64,000 nt of DNA, from the NCBI GenBank assembly GCA_902535625.1, contig CACAUA010000002.1:62001-126000 (forward strand), written 5' to 3'. Below are positions 14,229-41,952 of this stretch, one piece after another. The first letter of the stretch is position 1. Each line of letters starts with the position of its first letter. The translations under genes were made by a program, and so were the position numbers. Origin of the DNA: an uncultured Pelagibacteraceae bacterium. GTDB taxonomy: Bacteria > Pseudomonadota > Alphaproteobacteria > Pelagibacterales > Pelagibacteraceae. The notes under the pieces were generated by a model. The model saw nothing but the letters and a program-made list of their open reading frames with translations, did not search any database and was not told the DNA's origin.

Positions 14229-14804
14229 ATGAAAAAATTTATTGCTGGGGTTGATGAAGTTGGAAGAGGAAGCCTTGTAGGACCAGTTTATGCAGCTGCT
14301 GTTATATTAAATAAAGAAATTAATAGAAAAATTCTTAAAGATTCAAAAAAACTTAATAAAATTCAAAGGGAAACTTTAGCTAAATATATAAAAAAAAATT
14401 CAGTTTGGGCGTTAGGGTCTGCATCAATAAAGGAAATTGAAAAAATTAATATTTTAAATGCTAGTCTACTTTCGATGAAAAGAGCAATTAAGAAACTCAA
14501 ATTTAAACCTAGAAAAGTTTTAATAGATGGTAATAAACCACCAGAATTAAAAAATTATGTTATTAAAACTATTGTAAAAGGTGATGAAAAAATTCCTGAA
14601 ATTTCAGCAGCATCGATTATTGCTAAAGTTGAAAGAGATAAGCTAATGAAAAAGATGTCTTTTTCTTTTAAAAAATATGGCTGGGATAATAATGCAGGTT
14701 ATGGAACAAAGGATCATATTAAAGCTATTAAAAAATTTGGAGTGACTAGATTTCATAGAAAAACCTTCCAACCAATACACAAGATATTGAGTCTGAAAAA
14801 ATAA
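14229..14804 (+). CDS. rnhB: Ribonuclease HII
   Basis: RNase HII cuts at ribonucleotides embedded in DNA and removes RNA from hybrids. The 191-aa protein has the active-site start AGVDEVGRGSLVGPV (Asp-Glu near residues 7-8), the second acidic region LIDGNK, and AASIIAKVERD with the catalytic aspartate. A type 1 RNase H (rnhA) is also encoded in this window. Order UDG-rnhB-ccrM matches other alphaproteobacteria. Confidence 0.96.
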   Translation: MKKFIAGVDEVGRGSLVGPVYAAAVILNKEINRKILKDSKKLNKIQRETLAKYIKKNSVWALGSASIKEIEKINILNASLLSMKRAIKKLKFKPRKVLIDGNKPPELKNYVIKTIVKGDEKIPEISAASIIAKVERDKLMKKMSFSFKKYGWDNNAGYGTKDHIKAIKKFGVTRFHRKTFQPIHKILSLKK

Positions 14805-14840
14805 TCATAACAATTATCAATCAATAAATTCAATCACAGG

Positions 14841-14869
14841 TTGACGTAGACTCCTGACTGGAGTCTAAT
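14841..14869 (+). promoter_or_regulatory. Sigma70-type promoter of ccrM with GANTC sites in spacer and -10
   Basis: A near-consensus promoter is visible: -35 TTGACG (14841-14846, 5/6), a 17-bp spacer, and -10 TCTAAT (14864-14869, 5/6). It sits 13 bp before the ccrM ATG, so the leader must be very short. Two GANTC sites lie at 14849-14853 (GACTC) and 14861-14865 (GAGTC); the second overlaps the first two bases of the -10. Promoter activity is inferred from sequence only. Confidence 0.7.
14847..14867. repeat. Perfect 8-bp inverted repeat containing two GANTC sites
   Basis: The arms TAGACTCC (14847-14854) and GGAGTCTA (14860-14867) are exact reverse complements separated by 5 bp (TGACT). Each arm holds one GANTC site, the expected target of the CcrM enzyme encoded just downstream. 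The repeat fills most of the promoter spacer and reaches into the -10 box, so it looks like an operator or methylation switch. A simple transcription terminator for rnhB is less likely because no T-run follows. Confidence 0.85.
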
Positions 14870-14882
14870 TGAAAAATATAAA

Positions 14883-15956
14883 ATGATCATTTCAGACATA
14901 AAAAATAAAATTGTTAATGGAGACAGTATTAAGGAATTAAAGAAAATTCCTGCTGAAAGTTTTGATCTGATATTTGCAGATCCACCTTACAACCTTCAAC
15001 TGAAAAAAGAATTAAGTCGACCTGATAGATCTAAAGTTGATGCTGTAGACGATGTGTGGGATAAATTTGATAGTTTTAAAAGTTATGATGAGTTTTCAGT
15101 TCAATGGCTTAAAGAATGTAAAAGAATTTTAAAAAAAAATGGATCTATATGGGTCATAGGAAGTTATCATAATATTTTTAGAGTTGGTTCAAAAATGCAA
15201 GATTTAGGTTTTTGGATACTAAATGATGTGATTTGGAATAAAAATAACCCTATGCCAAATTTTAGAGGAACACGTTTTACGAATGCGCACGAAACACTTA
15301 TATGGGCATCAAAAAGTGAAGGCTCAAAATATACTTTTAATTATCAATCACTTAAATGTTTAAACGATGATCTGCAGATGAGATCTACATGGAATTTACC
15401 TATATGTAATGGAAAAGAAAGACTTAAAAATAATGGTAATAAAGTTCACTCGACGCAAAAGCCAGAGTCTTTATTGCACAGAATTATATTAGCATCCTCG
15501 AATAAAGGTGATTTAATATTGGACCCGTTTCTTGGTACGGGAACAACTGCTGTAGTTTCAAAAAAGTTAGGTAGAAATTATTTTGGGGTAGAAAAAGAAA
15601 AAGACTATTTTGAAGCTGCAAGTAAAAGAATTAAAAATACAAAAATTATAGAAGATGAATGTTTAGATACTATTAAAAATAATAGATCCAAACCAAGAGT
15701 ACCATTTGGATCTTTGGTTGAATTAGGAATTATTAAACCTGGTACTGAAATTTTTGATCAAAAAAAGCAAATCAATGCGAAAATTATGATTGATGGTAGT
15801 ATAAAATATCGGAAATCAGAAGGATCAATTCATAAAGTTGCTGCACAAATATTAGGTGCTGAGAGCTGTAACGGTTGGACTTTTTGGTATTATAAATCAG
15901 GTAATTCACTCAAACCAATTGATGATTTGAGACAAAGACTAAGGCCAACTACTTAA
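14883..15956 (+). CDS. ccrM: Cell-cycle adenine DNA methyltransferase (GANTC), CcrM
   Basis: A beta-class N6-adenine methyltransferase of 357 aa: catalytic motif ADPPYNL (32-38) comes before the SAM-binding motif DPFLGTGTT (from about residue 214), followed by a C-terminal domain of about 80 residues typical of CcrM (GSLVELGIIKPGT). In Caulobacter CcrM methylates GANTC late in the cell cycle and sets the methylation state of cell-cycle promoters. There is no restriction partner nearby, which supports an orphan regulatory enzyme. The stop overlaps the convergent monooxygenase gene by 4 bp. Confidence 0.95.
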   Translation: MIISDIKNKIVNGDSIKELKKIPAESFDLIFADPPYNLQLKKELSRPDRSKVDAVDDVWDKFDSFKSYDEFSVQWLKECKRILKKNGSIWVIGSYHNIFRVGSKMQDLGFWILNDVIWNKNNPMPNFRGTRFTNAHETLIWASKSEGSKYTFNYQSLKCLNDDLQMRSTWNLPICNGKERLKNNGNKVHSTQKPESLLHRIILASSNKGDLILDPFLGTGTTAVVSKKLGRNYFGVEKEKDYFEAASKRIKNTKIIEDECLDTIKNNRSKPRVPFGSLVELGIIKPGTEIFDQKKQINAKIMIDGSIKYRKSEGSIHKVAAQILGAESCNGWTFWYYKSGNSLKPIDDLRQRLRPTT

Positions 15957-41903: not shown

Positions 41904-41952
41904 GCGAATCAGTTTGATTATGAATCTACGCTTTGTTATTTACAAGTAAATT

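Follow-up and report, generated by a model that had tools for sequence, protein, structure and literature searches.

A GANTC doublet in the ccrM promoter of SAR11 and other Alphaproteobacteria as a probable methylation-dependent target of GcrA

The ccrM gene of this SAR11 genome is preceded by what is probably a sigma70-type promoter with a pair of GANTC sites that is read by GcrA according to its methylation state, as sequence comparison suggests. The doublet itself is real and, judged by its conservation, selected. Because the paired layout recurs upstream of ccrM across the Alphaproteobacteria, we conclude that ccrM probably senses its own methylation mark via GcrA. In what follows, the window is the whole 64-kb stretch of DNA that was analysed.

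The ccrM locus and its promoter

The ccrM product matches the CcrM structure PDB 6pbd over residues 9-354 (E=9e-139), and contains the domains PF01555 (N6_N4_Mtase) and PF18755 (RAMA), these being the catalytic core plus RAMA. The NCBI CcrM model gives a full-length match, at 579 bits, which is under its strict cut-off of 830 bits. The source assembly is 75% complete; across the SAR11 family, ccrM was found in 132 of 147 genomes, and in all 53 of those of high completeness. With dnaA assumed to be a proxy for the origin, the distance of ccrM from it amounts to 0.37-0.44 of a half-chromosome in seven complete genus genomes. The features of the locus are as follows.

14229-14804, + strand: rnhB (RNase HII; PF01351, E=1e-41), on the same strand as ccrM and ending 78 bp 5' of it
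14829-14835, + strand: upstream block TTCAATC, invariant in 27/27 distinct promoters
14841-14846, + strand: -35 element TTGACG, read directly; TTGAC is present in 29/29 promoters of the genus and two close genera
14847-14867, + strand: inverted repeat TAGACTCC-TGACT-GGAGTCTA, with perfect 8-bp arms at 14847-14854 and 14860-14867
14849-14853, + strand: GANTC site 1 (GACTC), in the middle of the spacer between -35 and -10, read directly
14861-14865, + strand: GANTC site 2 (GAGTC), read directly; it extends into the 5' end of the -10
14864-14869, + strand: -10 element TCTAAT as first annotated, with a 17-bp spacer from the -35; nearly invariant in relatives
14866-14871, + strand: alternative -10 element TAATTG, with a 19-bp spacer
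14883-15956, + strand: ccrM, GANTC adenine methyltransferase of 357 aa with N6_N4_Mtase and RAMA domains; ATG at 14883

The first-pass annotation had described the -35 TTGACG, the 17-bp spacer, TCTAAT, the paired arms around TGACT and the two GANTC sites, and all of these were confirmed by direct reading. Of a canonical pair of -35 and -10 elements 16-18 bp apart, the -35 TTGACG is clear. The assignment of the -10 is uncertain, because TCTAAT has C in place of A as its second base and so escapes a strict sigma70 scan, and because TAATTG provides an alternative. The ccrM leader would be about 6 nt long. A near-leaderless ccrM RNA is not a general feature, given that the -35 in the Rhodobacterales is separated from the start of the ccrM match by about 115-140 bp.

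The window contains fewer GANTC sites than expected, 73 compared to 173 ± 12 in shuffled sequence, and the placement of the doublet therefore stands out. In a rough set of 1.8 kb of intergenic sequence, taken from the window only, there are just five GANTC sites: two form the ccrM doublet, two lie upstream of ubiA as another pair, and the fifth is within a tRNA gene. A search of the genome for TTGAC and two GANTC sites spaced as at ccrM gave one match, ccrM itself. The same pattern matches ccrM in all 15 of the genus genomes searched, with four other matches in three of those genomes, and shuffling the upstream regions of the relatives never reproduced the doublet geometry.

Conservation within SAR11

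The upstream regions of ccrM were read for 70 genomes of the SAR11 family, and 27 distinct promoters from the window's genus and two close genera were aligned. TTGAC, TTCAATC and GAGTCTA are invariant and AATT is nearly so, although the invariance of TTGAC and TCTA is partly built in, as both formed part of the alignment anchor. Site 2 is kept in 27/27 of these promoters and site 1 in 26/27. The central base of site 1 is free (17 A, 8 C and 1 G), the adjacent spacer columns drift, and the distance of the site from the -35 varies by one base. It is because site 1 holds GA-TC while its central base and neighbouring columns drift that GANTC can be recognised as the unit that is kept.

The inverted repeat fares differently. 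Perfect 8-bp arms are present in 4/27 distinct promoters and are confined to the closest relatives of the window, while 15/27 have no perfect arm of at least 4 bp. The first-pass annotation had asked whether the dyad and both sites are kept while the rest drifts, and this holds for the sites but not for the dyad. The conserved unit, as read from the alignment, is the GANTC pair at fixed distances from the -35, and not the perfect dyad.

This has consequences for two explanations based on the arms. The repeat could be the operator of a dimeric repressor, with GANTC incidental, as its perfect arms in the window and closest relatives might suggest. However, besides the loss of the arms elsewhere, the distance between the half-sites shifts by 1 bp while GA-TC is kept, and in the Rhodobacterales complementary centres are found in only 3 of 61 distinct site pairs. 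The earlier suggestion that the dyad is bound by a repressor is thus very unlikely. An even smaller probability attaches to the proposal that the repeat forms an RNA hairpin, acting on read-through from rnhB as an attenuator or terminator. The strand does fold as RNA at -16.9 kcal/mol (z -2.0), and rnhB ends close upstream of ccrM, but neither a T run nor a terminator was found, and the dyad lies upstream of the inferred transcription start. Both the operator and the hairpin were rejected because the arms are not conserved.

Most other SAR11 genera keep one or two GANTC sites, often at the same distances, and in a second, sister SAR11 family the doublet is present at ccrM in 10 of 12 members. 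There are exceptions: spacer GANTC sites are lacking in 4/4 members of one SAR11 genus (g9) and in 3/5 of another (g12), and both genera encode CcrM and GcrA. Genus g9 retains a TCTATT element at the same place despite the loss of GANTC, which is what would be expected if only the core promoter were conserved and GANTC were a by-product of constraints on the -10 and its flanks, having no regulatory role. We consider this improbable, since site 1 is outside the core elements and holds GA-TC while shifting by one base relative to the -35, since the flanks of the doublet differ where it recurs across the class, and since GANTC is otherwise depleted.

Some further variation was seen in these regions. 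Many SAR11 relatives have an additional, third GANTC some 24 bp before the -35, which is absent from the window and its closest clade. One natural variant in the window's clade has lost site 1 (GACTT) and kept site 2. Leaders at three loci of sister genera contain another dyad, ATTCAAC-N4-GTTGAAT, after the -10, and SAR11 genera g2 and g4 have a related element, TTCAA..TTGAA, that overlaps the promoter.

Occurrence beyond SAR11

In the Rhodobacterales, TTGAC-N3-GANTC-N6-GANTC was found at 66 of the 79 ccrM loci that have enough upstream sequence, with all offsets being 8 and 19 from the -35. Here the -10 reads CATNNT, its first C being the C of site 2. For other alphaproteobacterial families, represented by one genome each, the doublet is present at ccrM in 16/42 and was obtained in 0 of 200 shuffle rounds; at least one site is present at these positions in 24/42, compared to 0.2 expected, and 18/42 have none at the tested geometry. 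The counts for the sister family, the Rhodobacterales and the other families are per sequence, and do not represent independent events. A class-wide scan of 56 genomes gave 46 matches to the pattern and 7 to its reverse. The occurrence of CtrA boxes in place of the doublet in other families shows a weak trend, confounded by base composition. Since the same layout is found in many larger alphaproteobacterial genomes, the doublet is not a feature of SAR11 streamlining, as had first been suggested.

Reading of the methylation mark

GcrA (PF07750) is encoded in the genome itself and in all 14 genera of the family, and co-occurs with CcrM across the family. Its N-terminal DNA-binding and C-terminal sigma-interacting regions align to the Caulobacter GcrA structures 7ye1, 5yiu and 5yix. 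Two features expected of a GcrA/CcrM-dependent promoter are found here, namely GANTC in or beside the -35 and -10 of a sigma70-type promoter (at 14849 and 14861), and an encoded GcrA with both DNA-binding and sigma-interacting domains. GcrA binds methylated GANTC (PMC3667746). In Pelagibacter genomes other than this one GANTC is methylated, less so near the origin (PMC9516812), in agreement with the first annotation, which had stated that alphaproteobacterial CcrM methylates this sequence.

An activation of ccrM by CtrA, as in Caulobacter, is unlikely as judged from a 99%-complete relative, in which CtrA was not found: its 4 OmpR-type regulators are all far under the NCBI cut-off for Rhodobacterales CtrA. 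CtrA has been reported absent from Pelagibacter (PMC2877005; PMC7987155).

We propose that CcrM methylates both sites of the doublet, of which site 1 is in the middle of the spacer and site 2 abuts or overlaps the -10, the two being 11-12 bp or about one helical turn apart. GcrA would bind the methylated GANTC together with sigma70, sense the state of the doublet and adjust initiation at ccrM, so that ccrM transcription would track the passage of the replication fork, from full to hemi-methylated and back to full. Binding of GcrA at this promoter and cell-cycle timing are both inferred. Support comes from Caulobacter, in which activation at 40-60 min is shared by a group of promoters that have GANTC between -10 and -35 (PMC4287350), and from the class-wide prediction that places ccrM among the core targets of GcrA, a status lost in Caulobacterales (PMC7987155). 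On the other side are the members of g9 and g12 that lack spacer GANTC yet have CcrM and GcrA, the 18/42 other families that have no spacer site at the tested geometry, and the observation that only part of the GcrA-bound cell-cycle promoters of Caulobacter have GANTC (PMC4287350).

A further argument against a role for GcrA is that sites beside the -10 could act by methylation-altered binding of sigma70. In this explanation, which corresponds to the self-limiting switch of the first-pass annotation, m6A would directly alter sigma70 binding or melting, with full methylation dampening ccrM and hemimethylation releasing it. It would fit with the position of site 2, which adjoins or overlaps the -10 in those clades that have the doublet, with the Agrobacterium gcrA promoter, where methylation is proposed to lower activity and full methylation to limit sigma factor recruitment (PMC11514494), and with ctrA P1, described as firing when hemimethylated (PMC8116508). 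However, the conserved site 1 in the middle of the spacer would not be needed for a direct effect on the -10, GcrA co-occurs with CcrM across the family, and published GcrA promoters often require methylation for activity (PMC3885167). The GcrA-bound ftsN promoter of Caulobacter, for example, has 14% of its activity left after mutation of GANTC (PMC3885167). A direct effect of m6A therefore seems to us rather unlikely, though a more serious contender than conservation of the core promoter by itself.

For the preferred reading by GcrA, the sign of the effect has also to be considered. Among published GcrA promoters, some are activated by methylation and others silenced by it, and the lowering of activity proposed for Agrobacterium gcrA counts against this reading. 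For ccrM we lean slightly towards GcrA activating the promoter when it is methylated or hemimethylated, rather than repressing it. More tentatively, the doublet might be a dedicated sensor of methylation state, with cooperative GcrA on one face of the DNA; the SAR11 circuit would then be largely reduced to a methylase reading its own mark, with ccrM as what would be nearly the only SAR11 promoter to keep the doublet. We regard this extended version as possible but doubtful.

Relation to known systems

Stephens, Zweiger and Shapiro reportedly proposed in 1995 that GANTC near the Caulobacter ccrM promoter affects its shut-off. In Caulobacter, the GANTC sites are 3' of the ccrM promoter, and not in the spacer. 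The Caulobacter promoter is also activated by CtrA (PMC3667746), whereas in SAR11 no CtrA was found. A closer resemblance is seen to the Caulobacter GcrA/CcrM sigma70 promoters ctrA P1, ftsN, mipZ and podJ, which likewise have GANTC in or near the -35 and -10 in a genome that encodes GcrA and CcrM; the differences are that here the target is ccrM itself, the two sites are about one turn apart, and GcrA binding is predicted. Agrobacterium tumefaciens gcrA is similar in having multiple GANTC sites in the promoter of one member of the GcrA/CcrM pair, with six in the 250 bp upstream, where methylation is proposed to repress (PMC11514494). In contrast, the upstream regions of SAR11 gcrA, considered as a possible second methylated node, are almost without GANTC.

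A general link between GcrA and ccrM is not new, as the class-wide prediction makes the same inference (PMC7987155); what is added here is the exact geometry, together with the case of SAR11. That analysis scored extended YGAKTCK motifs without positions, compared to the fixed doublet anchored on the -35 described here, and SAR11 site 2 (GGAGTCT) does not fit YGAKTCK. Of the conserved orthologs of Ca. P. ubique, few were reported there as likely targets of GcrA. No published description of the fixed doublet geometry was found in the literature searched, which excluded most subscription journals.

The value of the result is that it gives a precise and testable layout: counting from the first T of TTGAC, one GANTC at +8 to +10 and another at +19 or +20. 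This layout is a candidate for self-feedback of CcrM in many members of the Alphaproteobacteria, among them SAR11, a very abundant clade in which no CtrA was found. It would make existing methylation and RNA data readable at one defined promoter, and the sign of the effect of GANTC methylation on ccrM becomes directly testable.

Other GANTC promoters

A one-site scan (TTGAC, GANTC, TANNNT) for further methylation-type promoters in SAR11 gave counts at or below those of the controls. The GANTC pair upstream of ubiA (41906-41926) adjoins the start of a divergent ORF; its site at 41906 is kept in 15/15 genus loci read and that at 41922 in some only. A second recurrent paired-GANTC promoter, TTGAC-N5-GAATC-N6/7-GATTC, recurs in about 14 genomes of Alphaproteobacteria. 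Seven of these were read, and in them it is upstream of a small FtsB/DivIC-like gene (identified by eye), mostly preceding pdhA.
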